DNA of 17,345 bases, from NCBI GenBank assembly GCA_030740295.1, contig JASLXP010000476.1:1-17345 (forward strand), in the 5' to 3' direction. The DNA is from Planctomycetota bacterium (GTDB lineage Bacteria; Planctomycetota; PUPC01; JACPCR01). The position numbers and the translations under genes are program-made. The stretch's first letter is position 1, and the number at the start of each line of letters is the position of its first letter. The notes below the pieces were generated by a model. The model had not been told where the DNA came from. It did not search any database and worked only from the letters and a program-made list of their open reading frames with translations. This document shows, piece by piece, positions 3,675 through 15,792 of the stretch.

Positions 3675-6600
3675 TCAAAAGTCTTCGTCGAGCTTCTCGA
3701 GCTGCTCGAGCAGCTCTTCGTCATTCTGTTTGAGAACGCCTTCGCCCTGGTCCCGGACGGCCACCTGAACTAATGCGGCAATCTGTGCCATGCGCCCCTC
3801 CAGTTGGCCTCTGCCGTCCATCAGACGTCCGGCTCTGTCCCTTTCCGGTGGTCGCTTGGCCCAATGGTAGTTCACGAAGATGCGAACCATTTCGTTCCCG
3901 TCGTTTTTCACACCGGCGTACCATTTCTGCAGTTTTGCTTCGGTCCTTTTCATGGTGCCGGCTGCGGCCGGGGTGAACTTCTTTACTACGTTCATATAAG
4001 CCGTACCGATATCCTGCCCATTGTTGTCGCGCCATTCCGGGGCCGCTTTGACGGCACACTTGACGATCCCGGCGACCAGGCCAGGCGCCATCTCGTTTTT
4101 CTCATCGATGTGTTTCTGCAGGACGGAAAGCAGGGCTTTGTTGGCGTACCAGCACTGCCAGTCACGGAGGTCGTGGACTGCCGCGTCGAGCGCTTTGCCG
4201 ATGGCCGGGACGGACGCACGCACTTCCTTCCTGTCGATGTGCCGGCTGAGCACTTCGCCAGCGAAGGCGTAGTGGCGAGAATCGTTGCCTTCAACGTATC
4301 CAATCACAACGGTCGCTATCTTGATCGCGGTCTTCGGGCCTTTGCAGCGCCCGGCCCAGGCTGCGGAGACGGCCACCTTGCGCTCGAAAGCGTTGTCGCT
4401 CTCGGCCAGTGACAGCAAGACCTCATCGTCCCGGCCCTTGCCGAGTTTTGCGAGTGTCTGCCCCCAGACCTTCATTTCATGAATTACGTTCTGCATGGGC
4501 TGGCGCGTCTCCTCGCCGCCCAGTTCTGTCATCTGTACGGGAGGCGCGGTATCGAGCCACTGCTGCTGCGCCTTGACCACTTCGGCAACTTTCTCTTCCA
4601 CCGCGGGCGTGAGTTTGTAGACGCTTCGCTTCATCGCTCGTTGAGCTATCGGCCAGCCGGGCCAATCGCTCTTGGGCACTTTGATGTAACACTTGATGAG
4701 GCCGGAGATGAGGTGAGGGGTCTTTTCGGTTTCCGCATCCAGATAGCGGTCCAGTACGGGCGCACAGCCATCCATGACTCCATTGGAAAACATTCCCCGC
4801 AGGTGGTGCGCGACATTGTCCAGGACAAGAGCGATGGCCGGGAACGCATCTCTGGCTTCGGGACGCTCAACGTGAGCTCTGATGAGTTCCCAGGCGAACC
4901 CGAAAATGCGGGCATCGTTGCCCTGCCAGTTTTTCGCTGCCGCGGTGCCGACTCTCAGCGCAGCGACGGGATCTTTCATGAAGCCTCCACGCCTTCTGTT
5001 GAACATCAGGATGGCTCTACTTCGAGTGCCCGGATCCTGGCTCTCGGCCATAGCCAGTGCGATTTTGTGAGACGCTTCATTTTCAACCTTGAAATCATCG
5101 AGCACTTTCGCGGTCGACTGCATGACCCGGGCATCGCTGAGGGATTGGGCCGCCAGGGCCAGCAGCTCTTCGACTGCGTTCTCATCGAGCTTCCCGGCTT
5201 TGTGCAGCGCAAGCGCGACATCCCATCCTCCCATGCGGACGCCGGGGTGCGTGTCCTGAACCAGTTCCTTGACCAGAGGCAATCCGGCTTTTCCCTGGCG
5301 AGCGATCGCTGACGCAGCCTCCTCAATAACCGTGAAGACCGGGTGCGTCAGGAACCGGGCGCACTCTCTGGCTGACTTATCTTTAAAGAACTCCCGGCAA
5401 TCCTCATGAAAACGTTCGTCAGGTGGACGCCACCCGTTTCGCCCGCCGCCGCTTTCTGTGAATGGCTCTTTCGCTCGCACTTCAACTCCCTTGGGGCCGG
5501 CTGGTCCGAGCCCCAGCCTGACCAGACGTCTTGAGCCGGTACCGCAGCCGGCCAGCTTTGCCGCGAGGACATTTCTGTCGGGCCGGAGGAGTTCAAGGGC
5601 CTTCTGGCCGAGGTCAAACCTGCGCGGGCCATCGCCCTTTGTGAATGACATGATGCGCACACCATTGAGAAAGACGTCCCCGCTCACCGCCGGATCGACG
5701 GCCAGGCACATCGAGGTATACGCTGCTTTTTTTGCCGGCTCCTCCTCTACGGCGGCGAGGATCCCGGCGTCCTCATCGGCCTCCGGATCGGCATCCAGAA
5801 AGTCGTCCGGCAGGTCATCCCCTTTGCTTCGATTGAATTCCCTGCGAACCAGCAAGGTCTGCGCTGACGGTGCTGGTTCAGTGGCCTCGACGACCTTTGC
5901 CCAGCCAGTCGGCTTGTGATCGACCTCAACCCATGTCGGGCCTGGTTCAGGATGATCGTTATCGACTCCGTAAACATAGTGCTCGTCCTTTGCCGCATCG
6001 CCCCCTTCGAGCATGATGTCCCACAGGTGCACCTTCGCCTTCGCGGGCTCGGGCTCGTCCCTTTTTGCTGCCCGTGATCTTGGCAGGACTGGATTCACAA
6101 TCCTGGCTGCCAGCTTCTTCATCGCCTCACGTTCCTCACCGATATAAATGACGAGCGCGTCGAGCTGTTGCTTCGCTTTCCATTCGTTACCGGCCCTGAT
6201 GTTGTCTTCGATCAGAGCCAGGCTGGCCTGGTAATGTTGCTCTGTTCCGTGATATACGGCCTTCAATCCTGCAACGTATTTTCTTTCTGAATCGGTGGCG
6301 GGTTCCGATCGCTCTAAAGCCGAGGCAAGCTCTTTCCAGTTCTTTTGTTTAAAGAGGGCCGCCAAGCCTGAGAGATTCGCGGGTGGGCGTGTCCCGAATG
6401 TACCTTTCGGCGCGCCGAAGACGCGGAGCTTCTGCTTGGGCAACGCGTAGGCCATCCCAAGCCGCGAGGTCGAGCCCATGGGAGCCAGCGCCTGCATCGA
6501 GCCATCGCGCTTGTGTATCAGCTCGTAATGCCAGATCAGGTTGTTCATATAGAGGTTGAATTCAGGCGCCGGTGCGAGGTGTGCCCCTGGTGCGCCCCAG

Positions 6601-7916
6601 GCCATGGCAAACATCCGCGCACCATGGCCGTGCAGTCGATTGCGGTAGGCATAGGTGATGGGCCGAGCTGTCCATCGTGCAAGGTCTTCCGCTCCGAGGA
6701 TGGACAGAGTGATCGCCATGGTAGCGTTCATACCGTTGTAAGCCGCACCGTGGTAGTGCGACGCGGTCACTGTGTGATCGCCATAAGGCATACACGCGCC
6801 CACTCCCTTGCCAAAGAAGCGAATCGAACGCAGTAGCACATCGCGGTCGACTTCCAGCCCGGCTTCGCGCGCGAGCACCAGGCCCATGTAACAGACAGAA
6901 CCGACCTGATTGACCGCGCCGTAACCGCCCGGCGGGCAGCCATGCGACCACGAGCCGCAGGTCATTTGCCCCTTCTCGAGCACTTCGACCAGTTTGGCCG
7001 CGGACTCGAGCACTGCTGAATCACCGGTCAACAGATAGTATTCACAGAGCGTGACGAGGGCATAGCTCGACCACCACGAATTCAATCCGCCGTATCCGAG
7101 GTTCTTCTTTTTTGCCAGGCGATAGGCGGAACGGCGCACCAGTTCCAGGGCCTCGTGGTCATCCATCCCCAGCAGGAAAAGCCCGTCCCACCAGAACGAA
7201 ACGCCGGTGTCGCCCTTTGTATTGAGCACATTTCGCAAGACCTTCCTGCCGACTGCGTCGGACTTTGGACAATTGAAAGGCCAAGTCTCTCGGTAGCTGC
7301 CCTGCACGCCAAGCTCGATATTCACCTGTAGGACCTCTTGCCCGCGCACGACGTCGAGGATGAGCTGGCCGTTTCGCGCCTCGCTCTTCGCATCCGCCAG
7401 AGCATAGCCGAGCGGAACGCGGGGATCCCGTTCCTTCTCGAACAGATGCCCATAGGCGCCAATGACGAGGTCGCCCTTTTTGAGAGCCTTGCGCGCAGGA
7501 GAGTCAGGCTCAACGGTCATGACCGTGACCGCACTCTCGTTGTTCAGCTCTCTGAGCTGAGCCCCACATGTTCCCAGGGGAAAGGTCCCAGGCCCCGAAC
7601 GCCGATTGAGAAAAAAGGTCACCGCGCCGTGTTGCCGGAGCGCAGTCGCCTTCTCTTCTTTGCTCAATTGCCGCAGCGGCTTGCCCATGTATTGCTTGCG
7701 CAGATCGACGTGCGTGTCAGCCGCCTCTGCACCGTCAGGAAGTTTCCCCAGCACGGAGGACTCCCGATCTATCGACAGATGAGGTCGATGGTCGTCGCGT
7801 AGCTTTTGCAGTTCTTCTGCCAACTCAGCATCAGAGAGTGTTGGCTTCGCCGAAAGCAGTGACGGCGTAAACAGAATTGCAAGCGCAGCAATGTGGATGA
7901 TGTGGGAACGATTCAT
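3675..7916 (-). CDS. Giant exported PDZ / alpha-toroid / beta / HEAT-repeat protein (DUF6288-like)
   Basis: This is a 1413-residue protein with a signal peptide (residues 1-23). Domains in order: a PDZ-like domain at about 113-202, with VEPDSPARKALKKGDLVIG as its core; an alpha/alpha-toroid-like region at about 206-505, marked by ETWPFNC, WWSSYALVTLCEYY, a GYGAVNQVGS stretch, MPYGDH and a closing LRVFGAPK; a tetratricopeptide-like helical linker at about 515-605; a beta-rich domain at about 627-812 interrupted by an acidic segment (698-731); and HEAT-like helical repeats from about 835. Residues about 953-1120 and 1167-1335 are an internal duplication. From memory this family is labelled DUF6288; its function is unknown. 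Helical toroids of this size occur in polysaccharide lyases, glycosidases and terpene cyclases, so an enzyme is possible, but no catalytic set is proven. It lies 197 bases downstream of its paralogue on the same strand. No Shine-Dalgarno is visible. Confidence 0.85.
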   Translation of the reverse strand: MNRSHIIHIAALAILFTPSLLSAKPTLSDAELAEELQKLRDDHRPHLSIDRESSVLGKLPDGAEAADTHVDLRKQYMGKPLRQLSKEEKATALRQHGAVTFFLNRRSGPGTFPLGTCGAQLRELNNESAVTVMTVEPDSPARKALKKGDLVIGAYGHLFEKERDPRVPLGYALADAKSEARNGQLILDVVRGQEVLQVNIELGVQGSYRETWPFNCPKSDAVGRKVLRNVLNTKGDTGVSFWWDGLFLLGMDDHEALELVRRSAYRLAKKKNLGYGGLNSWWSSYALVTLCEYYLLTGDSAVLESAAKLVEVLEKGQMTCGSWSHGCPPGGYGAVNQVGSVCYMGLVLAREAGLEVDRDVLLRSIRFFGKGVGACMPYGDHTVTASHYHGAAYNGMNATMAITLSILGAEDLARWTARPITYAYRNRLHGHGARMFAMAWGAPGAHLAPAPEFNLYMNNLIWHYELIHKRDGSMQALAPMGSTSRLGMAYALPKQKLRVFGAPKGTFGTRPPANLSGLAALFKQKNWKELASALERSEPATDSERKYVAGLKAVYHGTEQHYQASLALIEDNIRAGNEWKAKQQLDALVIYIGEEREAMKKLAARIVNPVLPRSRAAKRDEPEPAKAKVHLWDIMLEGGDAAKDEHYVYGVDNDHPEPGPTWVEVDHKPTGWAKVVEATEPAPSAQTLLVRREFNRSKGDDLPDDFLDADPEADEDAGILAAVEEEPAKKAAYTSMCLAVDPAVSGDVFLNGVRIMSFTKGDGPRRFDLGQKALELLRPDRNVLAAKLAGCGTGSRRLVRLGLGPAGPKGVEVRAKEPFTESGGGRNGWRPPDERFHEDCREFFKDKSARECARFLTHPVFTVIEEAASAIARQGKAGLPLVKELVQDTHPGVRMGGWDVALALHKAGKLDENAVEELLALAAQSLSDARVMQSTAKVLDDFKVENEASHKIALAMAESQDPGTRSRAILMFNRRRGGFMKDPVAALRVGTAAAKNWQGNDARIFGFAWELIRAHVERPEARDAFPAIALVLDNVAHHLRGMFSNGVMDGCAPVLDRYLDAETEKTPHLISGLIKCYIKVPKSDWPGWPIAQRAMKRSVYKLTPAVEEKVAEVVKAQQQWLDTAPPVQMTELGGEETRQPMQNVIHEMKVWGQTLAKLGKGRDDEVLLSLAESDNAFERKVAVSAAWAGRCKGPKTAIKIATVVIGYVEGNDSRHYAFAGEVLSRHIDRKEVRASVPAIGKALDAAVHDLRDWQCWYANKALLSVLQKHIDEKNEMAPGLVAGIVKCAVKAAPEWRDNNGQDIGTAYMNVVKKFTPAAAGTMKRTEAKLQKWYAGVKNDGNEMVRIFVNYHWAKRPPERDRAGRLMDGRGQLEGRMAQIAALVQVAVRDQGEGVLKQNDEELLEQLEKLDEDF
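3912..5060 (-). repeat. Internal protein-level duplication in the 1413-residue gene
   Basis: Two helical blocks, residues about 953-1120 (bases 4557-5060) and 1167-1335 (bases 3912-4418), align end to end. Both have the order AES, then GND.R, FA.E, H..R.E.R, PAI...LD, H.LR, VL, D.E.E, a K-C-x-x-K element (KCYIK and KCAVK) and a Trp a few residues on. The blocks have diverged and about 46 residues separate them. This is an ancient tandem duplication of a HEAT-like module rather than a recent DNA repeat. Confidence 0.75.
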
Positions 7917-7991
7917 GCGGGGTGTCTGTGCGATTTACCGAGAATGAATGATAAACGGTTCTCGATGAATCGGATACTGGCGGTAGCAGAA

Positions 7992-8031
7992 TCGACTGGA
8001 GTCGACTTCAGTCGATTGTAGTCGACGGTCG
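7992..8031. repeat. Four-copy 10-bp tandem repeat, consensus TCGACTNNAG
   Basis: Four consecutive 10-base units are seen directly: TCGACTGGAG, TCGACTTCAG, TCGATTGTAG and TCGACGGTCG. The TCGA core is invariant and the last unit is degenerate. Two unit junctions create the palindrome GTCGAC. A 10-bp period places each core on nearly the same face of the DNA helix, as expected of an array of protein sites, but an intergenic repeat family with no regulatory role would look the same. The array ends 75 bases upstream of the start codon of the 1413-residue gene, so it lies in that gene's 5' region. Confidence 0.85.
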
Positions 8032-8086
8032 TGGCCACGGGCTGCTGCCATCCTGTGGTTCCTCCTCAGACAGCAGGCTGGCAGCC

Positions 8087-8113
8087 CGCCGCCACGGTGC
8101 GGCGAAATCGCCG
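8087..8113 (-). terminator. Alternative hairpins just after the 969-residue gene
   Basis: Two stems share sequence and exclude each other. One is CGCCGC (8087-8092) with GCGGCG (8099-8104) around a 6-base loop. The other is CGGCG (8100-8104) with CGCCG (8109-8113) around AAAT, abutting the stop codon. On the minus strand they lie immediately downstream of the gene, a terminator position, but no T run follows. They could instead stabilise the 3' end or attenuate read-through into the next gene. Confidence 0.35.
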
Positions 8114-11023
8114 TTACTTCGCTCTCTTCAAAACAAGATACGGCGGCTTCCAATCTTTCGGTTTGTCGCTGCTGAAGCCACCGGCTTCGATGAACAGGTA
8201 GGGCTCTGTCGGGCCTATCTTCTTCTCCTCGGTTTCCAACTCGAGGTCGACATCGAGGTCAAGATCATCCGCGTCATCCACCCCCAACGTCACTTCCGGT
8301 TCTTTGGGGTTATTGGGGAGCTCGACTTGCCGGATGGTCATCAGCAGCGCTTCGCCGCGGCTGGAGTCCATCAGGGTGTTGCCCGTCCAGATGCGTCTGG
8401 GATCGTCGGTCTTGCCGTCGTCATTGAAGGTGATCGATCGGAATGGAGTGCGGCCGGGATCCTTCTTCTTTTGGATTTTAAATTCGTCGAACGTCGCGAC
8501 CTGGTCGATGACCCGCCAGGTGCCGAGGATCTCTTTGTTGGCGATGAACTTTTCGTCGTACACATATTTGTCGGATTCCTTGAAGGTGGACTGCCATTTG
8601 GAAGTCAGTTTGGGCAGCACGAGCAGGAGCTCATCACTCCCGGGCGCATTGGAGATGAAGCTGTAGGCGCGGCCGCGGAGAATTTCCGTCTGAGCGCGGG
8701 TGATTTTTCCGGTTGGGGACTTCACCGGCTCAGGGATGGCCGCATAGGCATCGGAGAAGAGCTTGAGGCCAAACTTCTGCACCTCAGGACTGGCCGTCTG
8801 GAGTTTCTTGGCAATGCCGCCGACCGGGCCGGTCGATTGAAAGTCGATCCGCTTCTTGATGAGTTCAGCGATGGGCGGCAGCACTTTTTTGTAGTAACGC
8901 TTGTCGGTCGCGATGGGTGTGAGTGCCTTCGTGGCCGTGGTGTGCATCCACCAGTCCTCGTGATTCACAAACGACACGAGCCGATCGACGTGCGGTGCAA
9001 TACGCTCGGGGCCGGCCCGGGCGATGGCTTTCATGGCGGCCTGTGTTACCCACCACGACTCATCGGGATCGCTGAGCATTTTACCGACGAGGCCGAACAT
9101 CTCGTCGGTCACCCGATCGGCCGGCAGGGCCCTTCCTTTGAACATGCCGGTGATCGGCAGAAGACCGGTTTGCCGCATGCGAGGGTCTTCGCTCTTGAGC
9201 AACTCGAGGATGAGGTGGTCTCGTTTGTGTTGTCCGATCGCCCGGGCGGTCATCACTCGAACACCAAACTCCGGGTGACGGGCATACATCCGCAACGTGT
9301 CGTCGCTGACATCTTTGTGATTGATGCGGCGGAGGATAGGCCACGATGCATCGGTGGGGACCACCTCATTGCTCAAATCCTGGGCTTTGCCGGGTTTGTA
9401 TTCGGCCGGTTCGTTCGATTGAAAAGCATCGTCCGCGGCGTTGCCCCAGGGGCGTTTGGGCAGGGAGTATGTTTTGCACCATTGGGTCTTCGGCGCGCCG
9501 AACAGGCGAAGTTTTTTGCGTGGCAGCGTGTAGGCGAGCGCGTGGTAAGTGCCCCACGAGCGGGAATGCTCGGACGCCGAATTGTCGTAGCCTTCGCCGC
9601 CTGAGATGCCGATGCTGCCGTCGACACGCCGTGAGAGATCGTATAGCCAGCGGCGCTCGTTCATAAAGGAACGGTACTGGACGGGGCGCCTCTCCGGCAT
9701 CAGTCCCATGGCCGTGCTGTGCCAGAGCTCGCCGATGCCACCGCCGGTGTGGCCGGCCATGAACCACGACGTGGCATAAAAACTCTTCATGGCTGAGTTG
9801 TTCCGCGCCCGTGCGTAGATTGATGACTCACCCTCGGGCGACAACAGAGCCGCAGCCGCCATGGTTACGGCCAATCCGCCGGTCTTGCCGTTGTCACGGA
9901 ATCCGCCTTCGGGCCAGTGGTCTCCGTAAGGAACGTTGCCATGGCCGGCAAAACGGTAGAAGTGTTTGAGCGAGGTTTGAAGCATGTATTCGTCCACCTC
10001 GACGCCGCACTGCCGCGCCAACAGGAGGAACGTGACGCAGTGCACGCCCGCCGCGTTCATGTGTCCGCCCGCCATGTAGGTGAAGCCCGCGTGCCCGCGG
10101 CCGCTCCAGCCGCCGCTGTATAACGTCTTCCTGAGTTCCTCAGTCATTTTCTTGATGACCGGCAGGATACGGCGGTCTCCGGTGCGCAGGTAGTATTCAC
10201 AGACGCCCGGGCCGAGCATCCCATTGCTCCACGGATAAGAGCCAACGCCTTCAAAATCCTTCATCCATTTCTTGACGACCTCCAGGTCTTTCTCCTCACC
10301 GGTGGAGAGCAGAAACAGCACCGATCCCCATCTCGGTTTTTCATGCGTGGCAAGGAGATCGGCCATCTTCCTGACGATGCGGTCAGACTTCTTGCAGTTG
10401 AGCGGCCAGGTCTCGCTGTAAGTGCCGAGCACCGGAATCTTGACGATGACCTCATACGCCACGGCTGCGGCCGCTTTCGGCTTTCCTTTGGCAATAGTCT
10501 TCGTCAGTTCGTCGGCATCATCACCGGGGAGGGCGAGGGCGCCGGGAGCCACTTTTTTGACCGGCTTACTTCTCGAGGGCTTGTCCCTCACGATCATCTT
10601 CAGCACGCCATCCGTGGCCTCAGCTTCGGAGATGATGTTGCCGAGGATGATGCGCGGGTCGACGTCCTTCAGGGTCTTGCCGTTGATGCTCTCGATGATT
10701 TGACCGGGCTTCAGCTTGCCCGTTGCCGCAGCCGGAGAATCCTTCTCGACATTCTTGATACGCATGGTAAACGCCGGCTGAATCAGCTCGAGACCAATCC
10801 CGACCGGCCCGAAGTGCGTGATCGTCCAAGTCCCCTTCTCGTTTGGATAAGGGTGGAATTGCGGATGGACTTTGTAGTACGAACTCCCGGCCAATGCATC
10901 GTAAAGCGAGCCGGGGGCAGCCGGGACATTCGCCACCAAGCCCAGCAATACCGCGGTGATGGTTACCCCCATTTCCGTTGAAATCTTCCTGCTCTTCATA
11001 TCGTCTTGTCCGCGGATACTCAT
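8114..11023 (-). CDS. Large exported PDZ / alpha-toroid / HEAT / lipocalin-like protein (DUF6288-like)
   Basis: This 969-residue protein is a paralogue of the 1413-residue gene product downstream. It has a signal peptide (hydrophobic about 19-35), a PDZ-like domain at about 74-205 (GIGLELIQPAFTMRI, then SPAAATGKLKPGQIIESING) split by a low-complexity insert at 148-187, an alpha-toroid-like region at about 200-512, HEAT-like repeats at about 568-760, and a C-terminal beta-barrel-like domain at about 826-967 that opens with ILGTWRVID and ends YLFIEAGGF...KPPYLVLKR, reminiscent of lipocalin-like planctomycete domains. Motifs shared with the paralogue are ETWPLNC.KSD, CEYYLRTGD, VPYGDH and LRLFGAPK. 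An acidic insert lies at 913-935. Function is unknown. The ATG at 10999 (residue 9) would give a more conventional signal peptide, and GGA lies upstream of it, so the true start may be 10999 rather than 11023. Confidence 0.83.
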   Translation of the reverse strand: MSIRGQDDMKSRKISTEMGVTITAVLLGLVANVPAAPGSLYDALAGSSYYKVHPQFHPYPNEKGTWTITHFGPVGIGLELIQPAFTMRIKNVEKDSPAAATGKLKPGQIIESINGKTLKDVDPRIILGNIISEAEATDGVLKMIVRDKPSRSKPVKKVAPGALALPGDDADELTKTIAKGKPKAAAAVAYEVIVKIPVLGTYSETWPLNCKKSDRIVRKMADLLATHEKPRWGSVLFLLSTGEEKDLEVVKKWMKDFEGVGSYPWSNGMLGPGVCEYYLRTGDRRILPVIKKMTEELRKTLYSGGWSGRGHAGFTYMAGGHMNAAGVHCVTFLLLARQCGVEVDEYMLQTSLKHFYRFAGHGNVPYGDHWPEGGFRDNGKTGGLAVTMAAAALLSPEGESSIYARARNNSAMKSFYATSWFMAGHTGGGIGELWHSTAMGLMPERRPVQYRSFMNERRWLYDLSRRVDGSIGISGGEGYDNSASEHSRSWGTYHALAYTLPRKKLRLFGAPKTQWCKTYSLPKRPWGNAADDAFQSNEPAEYKPGKAQDLSNEVVPTDASWPILRRINHKDVSDDTLRMYARHPEFGVRVMTARAIGQHKRDHLILELLKSEDPRMRQTGLLPITGMFKGRALPADRVTDEMFGLVGKMLSDPDESWWVTQAAMKAIARAGPERIAPHVDRLVSFVNHEDWWMHTTATKALTPIATDKRYYKKVLPPIAELIKKRIDFQSTGPVGGIAKKLQTASPEVQKFGLKLFSDAYAAIPEPVKSPTGKITRAQTEILRGRAYSFISNAPGSDELLLVLPKLTSKWQSTFKESDKYVYDEKFIANKEILGTWRVIDQVATFDEFKIQKKKDPGRTPFRSITFNDDGKTDDPRRIWTGNTLMDSSRGEALLMTIRQVELPNNPKEPEVTLGVDDADDLDLDVDLELETEEKKIGPTEPYLFIEAGGFSSDKPKDWKPPYLVLKRAK

Positions 11024-11878: not shown

Positions 11879-12829
11879 ATGAAAAAAATCGAAAATCTCA
11901 CATGGCGTCAGATGCATGTCTCACACCTCGGCTGCATCAAAGGTTGTCTTGAATTTCTGGGGATAGATGTTTCTCCGCCATGGCTGTTTGGTGCCACGGG
12001 TCACGCGTTCGTCATCAATGTTCACGAAACCGCATGCCCAAGCGGACCAACTGCATGGAATACGGAGATGCTTTTCGCCCTGGGTAAAAACATCGGTTAC
12101 AACGCGGGCGGCTATTTCTGTATGAAATCCAGTGAGAGCTTCGAGGATTTCCAGGAGAAGAGCTGGCAAATGGTGCAGAAATCCATAGACGGCGGCACGC
12201 CCTGTTTCGGCTGGGAACTGGCCATCCCCGAATACTATGTGGTCAATGGATACGATGAGACCGGCTATCTCTTTTCCGGCCCCGGTGCTGAGGAAGGAGG
12301 GCCGGAGGCCAAACCATGGCGCGAGTTGGGGGACTCGGGGATCGGTGTTCTCGAAATGTTCACAGTGGACGCAGGCGAAGCAGTGGATGACTCGGTGGCG
12401 GTAAAGGAGGCACTGAGTTTTGGATTGGCGCACGCCAGCACCAGAAGCTGGATCTTTCCAAAATACAGTTCCGGCGTGGAAGGCTTCGAGACGCTGATAA
12501 GAGGCATCAAGGATGACGTTTCGGAACCATTCGGTTTCGCGTACAACATTGCCGTGTGGACGGAATGCCGCGAGATGGCAGTGCTCTTCCTGAAAGAGGC
12601 AAAAGAACGAACGGGTCTGGACGGCCTATACAACAGCGCTGTCGGTCATTACGAAGCCACAGCATCAGCACTGCGAAAAGTGGCAGACGCTTTCCCCTTT
12701 CATGGCATGAGCCCCGAACATCTCAAAGACTCGGACCTGCGTGCTGTTGCGATTGAGGAGCTTGGCAAAGCAAGAGATACCGAACGCGCCGGTCTTAACG
12801 CTCTCGAAGCCATCCGTGATGCGCTTTAG
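11879..12829 (+). CDS. BtrH N-terminal-like / C39-like papain-fold protein
   Basis: This 316-residue protein has no signal peptide. Residues about 10-160 resemble the BtrH_N family (papain-like fold related to C39 peptidases). A Cys-containing helix HLGCIKGCLEFLG has Cys19 or Cys23 as candidate nucleophile, WLFGATGHAFVINVHE holds His42, and YYVVNGYDETGYLF is the usual core strand pair with Asn123/Asp126. Residues about 170-316 are helical and may correspond to the accessory half of such proteins. BtrH itself transfers an acyl side chain from an acyl carrier protein to ribostamycin in butirosin synthesis; others in the family are uncharacterised. No carrier protein or antibiotic genes are present here, so the role is open: an acyltransferase, amidase or peptidase. 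The Shine-Dalgarno is weak. The next gene starts 95 bases downstream. Confidence 0.7.
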   Translation: MKKIENLTWRQMHVSHLGCIKGCLEFLGIDVSPPWLFGATGHAFVINVHETACPSGPTAWNTEMLFALGKNIGYNAGGYFCMKSSESFEDFQEKSWQMVQKSIDGGTPCFGWELAIPEYYVVNGYDETGYLFSGPGAEEGGPEAKPWRELGDSGIGVLEMFTVDAGEAVDDSVAVKEALSFGLAHASTRSWIFPKYSSGVEGFETLIRGIKDDVSEPFGFAYNIAVWTECREMAVLFLKEAKERTGLDGLYNSAVGHYEATASALRKVADAFPFHGMSPEHLKDSDLRAVAIEELGKARDTERAGLNALEAIRDAL

Positions 12830-12924: not shown

Positions 12925-15792
12925 ATGAATTCATCCTCAGTCCTGTTGTTGCTTACTCTTGGCGTGCCGCTTTACGGGGAGACCTTCACGATCAACAGCA
13001 TCGTCCCCGATCGAATGCCGGGGGATTTGGAACTGGCGGTCATCCCCACCCCGCAGGAATCAGATTGGCCGGACAGGATGATTCGGGCCGGACAGGTAGC
13101 GATCGTTGTTTCGGATCCGAAGAAACTGAGGGCAGGCAAAGATGAACTCATAGAACTGTTTGGCGGCCCTGAGAATGTGGAGTTTTTTACCAGACAGAAG
13201 AAAGCCGAGGCCAGGGAAGGCATCACCTCTACGATTTCAATCTCAGTCCCTGAGCGGGCCATCGCCGGCGGGCACAGGGAGGCTTACAGGCTGTCCATCA
13301 AACCTGGTGAGGAGCGACACCGTATCACGATAGAAGGCAACACTTGGCAGGCGTGCCACTGGGCGTTGCAGACGCTCAGGCAGATCTGTTACCTGAAGGA
13401 CAGCAGCCTCTACATCCGCTGTGGCCGGGTGACCGATTGGCCCGTCTTCCCGTTGCGAGGCTGCAAACGGCCGCAGCCATGGGAGCACTCGTTTAAATCA
13501 AATTTTCGGTATTCGGTGAATGGGCTGCGCACGAAAGAACAGTTTCAGAATCACTTCATGGATCGGTTCATTCCTGATCCTTTTATCGGACGCGAATTGG
13601 ATACGTCCGAGAAAACGATCGAGAAATTCGAAGAGCAGATGGCACAGTTCAACACCGACGGCGCGACCGGATACGCGTTTCACGTGGATGACATGCCCAT
13701 GAAGCTCTCCGATTCGACTCAGGCAAGATTCAACGGTAACTACGAAGCCGCGATCCATTCGTTCTTGTCAAGCATGAAGTCAGCAAGAGACCGCATCGAT
13801 CCGGGCGATTCACTTTATTTTATTGCGCAGCCGTACTGGACGAACACCAATTACAGGACCTATGCGGATGCCATTAACAAGGCCGGAGGTCTACCTTCCG
13901 ACCTGGGGATGATCCTGTGCGGCCACGAAGTGACCAGTTGGGCCCTGCCTAGGGATGACATCCAGGCTTACCGTGAAGCATTCAAGACCATCAGAACAAA
14001 GGCGCTCATATACGACAACATTTACGATTCGACCTTCATCCCCGTGGATGCCCGCCCCGCGGAATTGGCAGAGGTCATCGACGGCGTCATCCCCGAACAA
14101 GCCACCGCTACTGGCCGGATCACTCGCCTTGATTGGGGCTGGAATCCCAGGGCATACAATCCCGATCGCAGCCTCAAGCTCGCATGCCGTGAACTCGCAG
14201 GGCTCAAGCACTGGGACACGCTCTACCATGCCATCCGATTGAGCGATGGACGTCTTCCCGGCCCAAATTACGAACCGCGCAAGGCCGCGCTGGGGCGGTT
14301 CAAGGTGCTCACCAGGCAACTTCATTCTTACCTGGACAAGCTGAACGAAATCGCGGATGACGCAGGCAACATCCCCGGCGGATTCGAAATTAAAGGGCCG
14401 GCTGCGGTCAGCCATCCGTTTAAAGGAATCATCGACGACTTGGGCCTGTTCTCTATCGCGCTCAGCGAAGACGAGCTCGATGCCATCTACGAGGAAGGGC
14501 TGGAATCTCGCCTCGAGGAAAACGATGAATTACGAGAGGCCGCGGTCGGTATCTGGCTCATGGATGATCCGTCCTCGGAAAGAGTGTTGGACAGTGCCGG
14601 TCGCAAGATCCATGCGGCAGTGAAAGGAAGACGGACTCGAAAGGTCGCGGGCAAACATGGCCTTGCCCTCCGCTTCCCCGGTAACGATGGCAACAGCGTG
14701 CGCGTCCCATACCGGCCGCTGCTGCGGCTCAACGCTTTCACGATCACCACCTGGATAAAGGCCCGGCACACCGGTAACTACCAAGTGATCCTGCACCGGT
14801 TTGGTAAAGATGATCACCGCAATTATTCGCTCATCCTCGACAAGGAGGGCCGCCCCTACGCAGACGTTTTTCCCGTCCCGGGAGTGAGCGCAAACATCAA
14901 GGTAACCGACGATAAGTGGCATCACCTTGCAGTCACGCTCGAAGGAAGGGAATCACGGATCTACGTGGACAACAGACTGAGAGGCACACGCCAGGTGAAA
15001 GGCGGTCTGAGTTTTCGCGGCGACGCGCCGCTGAGCATCGGCGCCACTTCCAGTCCGAATGTTTCGAGGCCCAAAGGCTACGCTTACGGGGTAGTCCATC
15101 ACCTCACTGATTTCGTCGAGGGGATCGATAAACACGAGGCCACGTCCGCGCAGATGAAAAACGCATACAAGGAAATGAAAGCAGCCCGGCTTAGGAACAA
15201 GATTCAGATCGATGGAAGGATGGAGAATGCCTGGTCCGTCACTTCACCCGCTGGCAACTTTGTCATCGGCCACAACGGCGAACCGGCCTCAGAGCCAATC
15301 CAACTCTCCGTCCGTGCGGGCTACGACGCCGAGAATCTGTATCTGTCCATCACGAATCGTTCAAAGGCGCAAAGCGAAGCAGAACTGGCAAAGCTCACAC
15401 GCCGGGACCGCATCCTGGCAAACGGACTCGGCCCCGATCACCTGATCGCCCTTCTCGACCCCGGTCATACCCACAAATGGAGCTACGAATTCCGAGTCTC
15501 CCGCAACGGGACAATGCACGACGGCCGCTTCCACATCGGGTCCGCCGAAACCCCGCAAGGCAAGCAATGGAACAGCGGCGCAAAAGTCGCCACGCACAGC
15601 ACGGCAGCTCAATGGACGGCCGAGCTGGCCATCCCGCTGAAAAGGCTCGGAAAAGCGCCGGCGAGCGGCAGCGTGTGGGGCATCAATTTCTGGGCACGAA
15701 AGCCCGGCACTCCGCCCCTCATCTGGTCCCACAAGATTCGCTGGTGGGGGTTCACCGATACTCGGCAGGCGGGGCATTTGCTGTTTGAGTAA
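12925..15792 (+). CDS. Exported GH84-type beta-N-acetylglucosaminidase-like protein with LamG and CBM9-like parts
   Basis: This is a 955-residue protein with a short signal peptide (about 1-18). Residues about 36-160 form a GH20b-type alpha/beta domain (EAYRLSI, ITIEGNTWQACHWALQTLRQI). Residues about 174-430 form the catalytic barrel, resembling GH84 (NAGidase), with the adjacent aspartates Asp255-Asp256 in AFHVDDMP in the position of the GH84 catalytic pair, an ILCGHEVTSW strand where GH84 enzymes have WTGP-type sequence, and a LIYDNIYDS strand. Helices follow at about 430-480. A LamG-like lectin domain at about 497-706 is in permuted order, more helices lie at 720-757, and a CBM9-like domain is at about 760-955 (IDGRMENAW, AENLYLSI, WTAELAIPLKRLG). 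GH84 enzymes cleave beta-N-acetylglucosamine by a substrate-assisted mechanism. Several GH84 landmarks are weakly conserved, so substrate may differ. No Shine-Dalgarno is visible. Confidence 0.78.
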   Translation: MNSSSVLLLLTLGVPLYGETFTINSIVPDRMPGDLELAVIPTPQESDWPDRMIRAGQVAIVVSDPKKLRAGKDELIELFGGPENVEFFTRQKKAEAREGITSTISISVPERAIAGGHREAYRLSIKPGEERHRITIEGNTWQACHWALQTLRQICYLKDSSLYIRCGRVTDWPVFPLRGCKRPQPWEHSFKSNFRYSVNGLRTKEQFQNHFMDRFIPDPFIGRELDTSEKTIEKFEEQMAQFNTDGATGYAFHVDDMPMKLSDSTQARFNGNYEAAIHSFLSSMKSARDRIDPGDSLYFIAQPYWTNTNYRTYADAINKAGGLPSDLGMILCGHEVTSWALPRDDIQAYREAFKTIRTKALIYDNIYDSTFIPVDARPAELAEVIDGVIPEQATATGRITRLDWGWNPRAYNPDRSLKLACRELAGLKHWDTLYHAIRLSDGRLPGPNYEPRKAALGRFKVLTRQLHSYLDKLNEIADDAGNIPGGFEIKGPAAVSHPFKGIIDDLGLFSIALSEDELDAIYEEGLESRLEENDELREAAVGIWLMDDPSSERVLDSAGRKIHAAVKGRRTRKVAGKHGLALRFPGNDGNSVRVPYRPLLRLNAFTITTWIKARHTGNYQVILHRFGKDDHRNYSLILDKEGRPYADVFPVPGVSANIKVTDDKWHHLAVTLEGRESRIYVDNRLRGTRQVKGGLSFRGDAPLSIGATSSPNVSRPKGYAYGVVHHLTDFVEGIDKHEATSAQMKNAYKEMKAARLRNKIQIDGRMENAWSVTSPAGNFVIGHNGEPASEPIQLSVRAGYDAENLYLSITNRSKAQSEAELAKLTRRDRILANGLGPDHLIALLDPGHTHKWSYEFRVSRNGTMHDGRFHIGSAETPQGKQWNSGAKVATHSTAAQWTAELAIPLKRLGKAPASGSVWGINFWARKPGTPPLIWSHKIRWWGFTDTRQAGHLLFE

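Follow-up and report, generated by a model that had tools for sequence, protein, structure and literature searches.

What do two large adjacent genes of a Planctomycetota bacterium encode, and do their products work as a pair? Both lie on the minus strand, as do all their features given below, of a 17,345-nucleotide stretch of contig JASLXP010000476.1, referred to here as the window. One gene (3675..7916) encodes P0001, a protein of 1413 amino acids (aa), and the other (8114..11023) encodes P0002, of 969 aa; the gap between them is 197 bp. A sequence-only reading had described the products as paralogues with a shared core order that form an undescribed system. The first part was borne out: both proteins have a start resembling a signal peptide, along with PDZ, alpha-toroid and HEAT regions. 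The second was not, since the Pfam scan assigns both to the multi-copy family DUF6288 (PF19805), with 408.5 bits for P0002 and 236.4 bits for P0001 against a curated cut-off of 26.3. DUF6288 is an already catalogued family whose function is blank: no functional description stands behind the name, and a literature search under either DUF6288 or PF19805 returned no paper. It is proposed here that DUF6288 members may be exported, carbohydrate-active proteins built around a Tyr/His centre, a proposal for and against which we see the case as evenly balanced.

Conserved residues of the DUF6288 toroid

P0001 and P0002 align over their PDZ–toroid core with 29% identity (E 6e-32); they are distant paralogues and may have related substrates. 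In a midpoint-rooted tree of 62 cores, P0002 falls in clade A (42 rows, support 86/86) and P0001 in clade B (18 rows, support 99/99, several branches being long and unsure), with two rows outside both. The PF19805 model, of 402 positions, spans the toroid and reaches into the PDZ domain. The toroid, a predicted (alpha/alpha)6 fold, covers residues 198-512 of P0002 (9488..10432), and its counterpart in P0001 covers residues 204-504 (6405..7307).

Conservation (residue numbers follow P0002) was assessed in 44 cores sharing <70% identity, to which 20 hand-picked distant members of other genomes were then added, giving 64 toroids. The distant members comprise 17 compact open reading frames (ORFs), called at 461-774 aa, and three long ones (1,473-2,450 aa). 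Trp265, Glu276, Gly340, Tyr366, His425, Trp434 and Gly509 are invariant in the 44 cores, and Cys210 is kept in 43 of them. Once the distant members are included, only Trp265 (10229..10231), Tyr366 of the PYGDH motif (9926..9928) and His425 (9749..9751) stay invariant (64/64, and 35/35 at <60% identity). This trio persists at 16-25% identity, where the remainder of the toroid has diverged. Glu276 (10196..10198), an inner-helix residue of the EYYL.TGD motif, is present in 62/64. The corresponding residues of P0001 are Trp281, Glu292, Tyr378 and His431. The compact ORFs (L113-L128 and L132), most of them of ~500 aa, all carry the trio; the six that were scanned with Pfam contain PDZ and DUF6288 in each case. 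Such compact ORFs would make a good minimal construct.

In the helix order of the P0002 model, the inner helices are preceded by long loops and followed by short turns (TGD, for example), and the active side of this fold is the long-loop face. By this topology, Trp265, Trp306, Tyr366, Asp368, Asn378, His425 and Asp468 would lie on the long-loop face, with NC.KS, TGD and FGAP on the turn face. The sequence-only reading had built its active site on shared motifs expected to meet in one cavity. In the modelled topology the PYGDH region keeps its place on the long-loop face, while ETWP.NC.KSD, TGD and FGAPK fall on the opposite one; the candidate site narrows to Tyr366 of PYGDH and to His425, which lies outside the motifs originally noted. 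The EYYL.TGD motif may be a fold motif, because CelS, a cellulase, has it too (E 0.0015 over 44 residues).

Comparison with toroid enzymes and competing readings

The Foldseek matches listed were HEAT/armadillo and similar proteins, the toroid being visible only through VIA-align. In the structural comparisons, the modelled toroid appeared to share a fold with glycosidases and epimerases. The fold is common to DUF6288 and the glycoside hydrolase (GH) family GH76 of alpha-1,6-mannanases (7nl5, 5agd, 6shm), at 7-12% identity. However, Asp mutants appear in the titles of 6shm and 5agd, whereas the 64 DUF6288 cores lack a conserved Asp pair, no Asp column reaching 85%. The GH76 family PF03663 is absent from the nine families matched by 26 DUF6288 cores at E up to 1. 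The unsaturated glucuronyl hydrolases of GH88/GH105 (PF07470) match one of these 26 cores, at E 0.099, which does not place DUF6288 among them, and the hhalign probability between the two profiles is 14.6%. The cellobiose 2-epimerase/AGE family (PF07221) matches none of the 26; its members have a conserved His pair, while DUF6288 has one invariant His. The GH88 and AGE profile alignments are small (seven and four sequences). Since GH88 and AGE, which share a fold, score just 13.7% against each other, low profile scores leave a kinship possible.

Among the nearest known systems are also the toroid polysaccharide lyases (PL) of families PL5, PL12, PL15, PL17, PL21, PL33 and PL39. PL5- or PL33-type lyases were not recognised among the structural matches listed, which is still compatible with kinship. 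The lyase centre of PL5 consists of conserved Asn, His and Tyr, according to PMC8286568, and PL33 uses Asn238, Tyr291 and His444, according to PMC11848413. In the latter source, PL33 residues follow this order and an additional antiparallel beta-sheet domain is described, whereas the DUF6288 order is Tyr, (Asn), His, all inside the toroid. Because the arrangement of residues differs, the relation of DUF6288 to PL5 and PL33 would be one of likeness rather than membership.

Genomic context provides a further line of evidence. Up to two genes away from DUF6288 genes, 237 neighbours remained after 17 edge fragments had been removed from 254, and 98 of them were drawn at random. The commonest neighbour was SASA (PF03629), with 15 of the 98. 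In six genomes, 21/122 DUF6288 matches have SASA within 2 kb, against 3.4 expected by density (Poisson P ~1e-10). This test used 122 of 144 PF19805 matches (second gene pieces and unlisted rows being excluded) and 143 of 227 SASA matches, with contig ends ignored; the background genomes were hand-picked. At three loci (L029, L074 and L077) the genes run SASA, clade B, SASA, clade A on one strand, and the gaps around the middle SASA gene range from -116 to 77 bp, gene starts being approximate.

Moreover, DUF6288 is fused in single proteins to GH35 (L029), to a GDSL esterase (L076) and to SASA with LamG (L131); an NPCBM match in L129 is under threshold. The L131 protein is a 2450-aa ORF (L131:1-7350), reaching the edge of its stretch, with SASA, DUF6288, HEAT, three LamG stretches and cadherin-like domains. 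Among 40 hand-picked DUF6288 members tallied by domain, one has a SASA match (3.5e-15). The clade B gene of L008 was flagged as a SASA fusion by an iterative SASA profile, whose short target motif is present in 29/41 of its genes; Pfam lists no SASA there, and no fusion is claimed.

On the proposed carbohydrate-active reading, exported DUF6288 members, here from bacteria of the Planctomycetes–Verrucomicrobia–Chlamydiae (PVC) group, would act extracytoplasmically on carbohydrate polymers. The long loops that precede the inner helices would form an aromatic cleft in which the toroid binds glycan. We infer export, active site, reaction type and substrate alike: catalysis would most likely fall to the invariant Tyr and His (Tyr366 and His425 in P0002, Tyr378 and His431 in P0001), with a chemistry closer to that of beta-eliminating polysaccharide lyases or of sugar epimerases than to that of a GH76-like carboxylate pair; the activity is perhaps that of a lyase or an epimerase. 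The PDZ and HEAT domains might dock or scaffold, a guess from their usual roles, and added beta domains, such as the GH2-type jelly roll of P0001, could aid substrate binding. Genes of some related members sit in apparent operons with those of SASA-type carbohydrate esterases.

Several observations weigh against this proposal. Asn378 is found in 41/44 cores but in only one of the 20 distant members (L131), and P0001 carries His and Met at the positions of Arg465 and Lys/Arg380. Tyr366 sits within a Gly-rich loop and could have a structural role, and the shared cleft is deduced from helix topology in the model. The SASA expectation rests on random placement; SASA is absent among the nine window proteins scanned with Pfam, and none was found adjoining the DUF6288 gene of L001, a close relative of P0002 discussed below. 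Sulfatases are at most mildly enriched near DUF6288 genes (18 against 12.2 expected, P 0.07, from two different detection methods; 4/98 neighbours, P 0.04), and a sulfatase linkage was set aside for this reason.

The same data can be read in other ways. DUF6288 proteins might be non-enzymatic scaffolds: PDZ, toroid and HEAT would bind partners and so organise the cell envelope or other exported enzymes, and the invariant residues would serve ligand binding or folding. HEAT and PDZ, present in both proteins, are binding modules as a rule, non-catalytic toroids exist among other proteins, no glycosidase-like carboxylate pair is invariant and the add-on domains vary. However, a scaffold does not readily account for a Trp/Tyr/His trio kept through such divergence of the toroid, and the GH35, SASA and GDSL fusions suggest common substrates; we consider this reading rather unlikely, if worth keeping in view. 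A GH76- or GH88-like hydrolase, with Glu276 and either Asp368 or Asp468 as acid and base, would fit the top structural matches of the toroid, which are mostly glycoside hydrolases, as well as the frequency of these residues (Glu276 as given above, Asp468 in 51/64 and Asp368 in 40/64 toroids). Nevertheless, near-invariance holds for Glu276 alone, within the helix shared with CelS, Asp368 is replaced by Asn, Thr or Arg in 17/64, and the best E among glycosidase profiles is only 0.03 (GH127, 2/26 cores), which together make a hydrolase of this kind improbable. Thiol chemistry by Cys210 and His425, as in linalool dehydratase-isomerase, draws on a cysteine that is nearly constant in the first set. 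By helix order in the model, though, Cys210 would sit across from His425, on the turn face; its position is a gap in four cores and holds another residue in two, and both neighbours and fusions point to carbohydrates, so that this chemistry is hardly to be expected.

Status of the gene pair

The sequence-only reading had further envisaged a dedicated two-component exported machine and asked how often the two genes co-occur. The nearest P0002 relative with readable surroundings, L001 (77% identity), has a fumarase gene downstream and no clade B gene within the 10 kb downstream, this being the one close relative examinable; its genome carries a P0001-like gene (40-47% identity) on a separate contig of 237 kb, close to gyrase A and to a kinase. 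P0004, which is 81% identical to P0002 and thus closer than L001, has no readable genomic context.

Across the 79 loci, obtained in one scan of genome contigs as the best 80 of 371 relatives, clade A and clade B genes lie ≤2 kb apart by the tree in eight (L008, L029, L031, L041, L064, L072, L074 and L077), with a smallest gap of 34 bp. Clustering of DUF6288 genes exceeds chance in the six genomes, where 13/122 members have another within 3 kb (4.4 expected) and 15/122 within 5 kb (6.4 expected). These figures favour a machine of two parts, and local cooperation of A and B members is possible at some of the cross-clade loci. On the other side, 107/122 members have no other DUF6288 within 5 kb, and order and orientation vary among the eight loci, whose B partners come from a different B subclade or from long B branches of their own (L074 and L077 are almost identical, and the L064 clade B gene sits on a long branch). 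An obligate pair was rejected on the context of L001 and on these solitary members: the partnership, unconserved in the one close case seen, is not supported, and a dedicated two-component machine in the window is very unlikely.

Architecture, neighbours and distribution of the family

Both genes were called from their ORFs and Pfam matches, with the tree as additional evidence for P0001. Met9 (10999) is the likely true start of P0002, for which the identical (100%) 961-aa database protein P0003 was listed as evidence; P0123, from a protein collection, is 99.9% identical to P0001. From the N-terminus, P0002 has a putative signal peptide judged by eye (residues 9-36; 10916..10999), a PDZ domain (~residues 66-147; 10583..10828) supported by Pfam PDZ_6/PDZ matches slightly under cut-off and by model strands, and, after the toroid, HEAT/armadillo-like repeats (residues 553-830; 8534..9367). 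Its C-terminal beta domain (residues 831-969; 8117..8533), seen as model strands, includes a low-confidence acidic stretch (low pLDDT, the model confidence score, at 913-931) and found no match in family searches.

P0001 likewise begins with a signal peptide judged by eye (residues 1-23; 7848..7916) and a PDZ domain (~residues 115-201; 7314..7574; Pfam PDZ_2 under cut-off, and model strands); both proteins are apparently exported. Unlike the PF19805 model, P0001 has an extra central jelly roll (residues 633-812; 5481..6020), which resembles the sugar-binding domain of GH2 and matches GH2 domains in the structure search, and a long helical HEAT-like C-terminal half (residues 830-1413; 3678..5429; HEAT_2 under cut-off, the model extending to residue 1200). 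The sequence-only reading had called the added beta domains, this jelly roll and the C-terminal one of P0002, lipocalin-like.

The gap between the genes contains, at 7990-8026 and 8030-8096, three 15-nt direct repeats spaced by 10 nt and a 27-nt inverted repeat with 74% complementarity; these may have a regulatory role or act as a terminator. The window also holds a sulfatase, a PF06439 hydrolase and a GH20/GH84-like protein with LamG. The last of these (12925-15792; 955 aa), with GH20b and LamG, NAGidase slightly over cut-off and CBM9 slightly under, is a probable hexosaminidase-like enzyme. A 316-aa ORF (11879-12829) matches nothing in Pfam even at E 10, and nothing in NCBIfam or PADLOC; its sole hit in the Protein Data Bank is weak and to a designed protein (E 0.00025), and phmmer found relatives in 0/79 related loci. 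A defence role was also considered and dropped, PADLOC giving no match for P0001, P0002 or this neighbour.

Homologues of P0002 at E up to 0.001 numbered 1969 among 7997 candidates examined. Planctomycetota appears in the titles of L001, the nearest named P0002 relative with DNA, and of P0005 (78%); 72 of the 79 loci titles name Planctomycetota, Verrucomicrobia, Kiritimatiellia, PVC or their subgroups, and seven give no phylum. Each of ten genomes reached through the loci has 2 to 32 PF19805 matches, gene pieces being counted separately. At E 1e-20, DUF6288 was found in 15/145 and 48/149 genomes in samples of two phyla (each including its centre genome, already known to hold the family) and in 0/14 control genomes; in another scan, at E 0.001, two control genomes gave weak PF19805 matches under cut-off. 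P0001-like genes are rare, with 4/392 genomes of one phylum sample at E 1e-60, the centre genome among them; searching 288 genomes from a single phylum with P0001 at E 1e-100, without a positive control, gave zero matches.

L129 and L130 are DUF6288 proteins of ~1,475 aa, and seven further genomes of the same phylum sample each show a single match in a frame of 1462-1506 aa; this type is perhaps a separate conserved lineage. In genome G006 (C1), which is the L048 genome, some DUF6288 and SASA matches contain in-frame TAG, perhaps marking decaying paralogues or sequencing errors.

PVC bacteria are degraders of complex polysaccharides, and large exported families such as DUF6288 in these bacteria are still without a function. 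The fullest form of the proposal, which we offer tentatively and with more doubt than trust, is that DUF6288 could be a class of exported toroid enzymes that has escaped recognition: a new family of polysaccharide lyases or epimerases, whose Tyr/His centre would lie entirely inside the toroid and whose PDZ domain would be integral. Such a family, with up to 29 listed places in a single genome (counting fragments), would dismantle acetylated polysaccharides together with SASA esterases in PVC bacteria. As the pair is not conserved, its interest as a two-gene system is smaller. If the family is carbohydrate-active, its PDZ–toroid design would be unusual among toroid enzymes, and one assay would convert an empty Pfam name into a new enzyme family.
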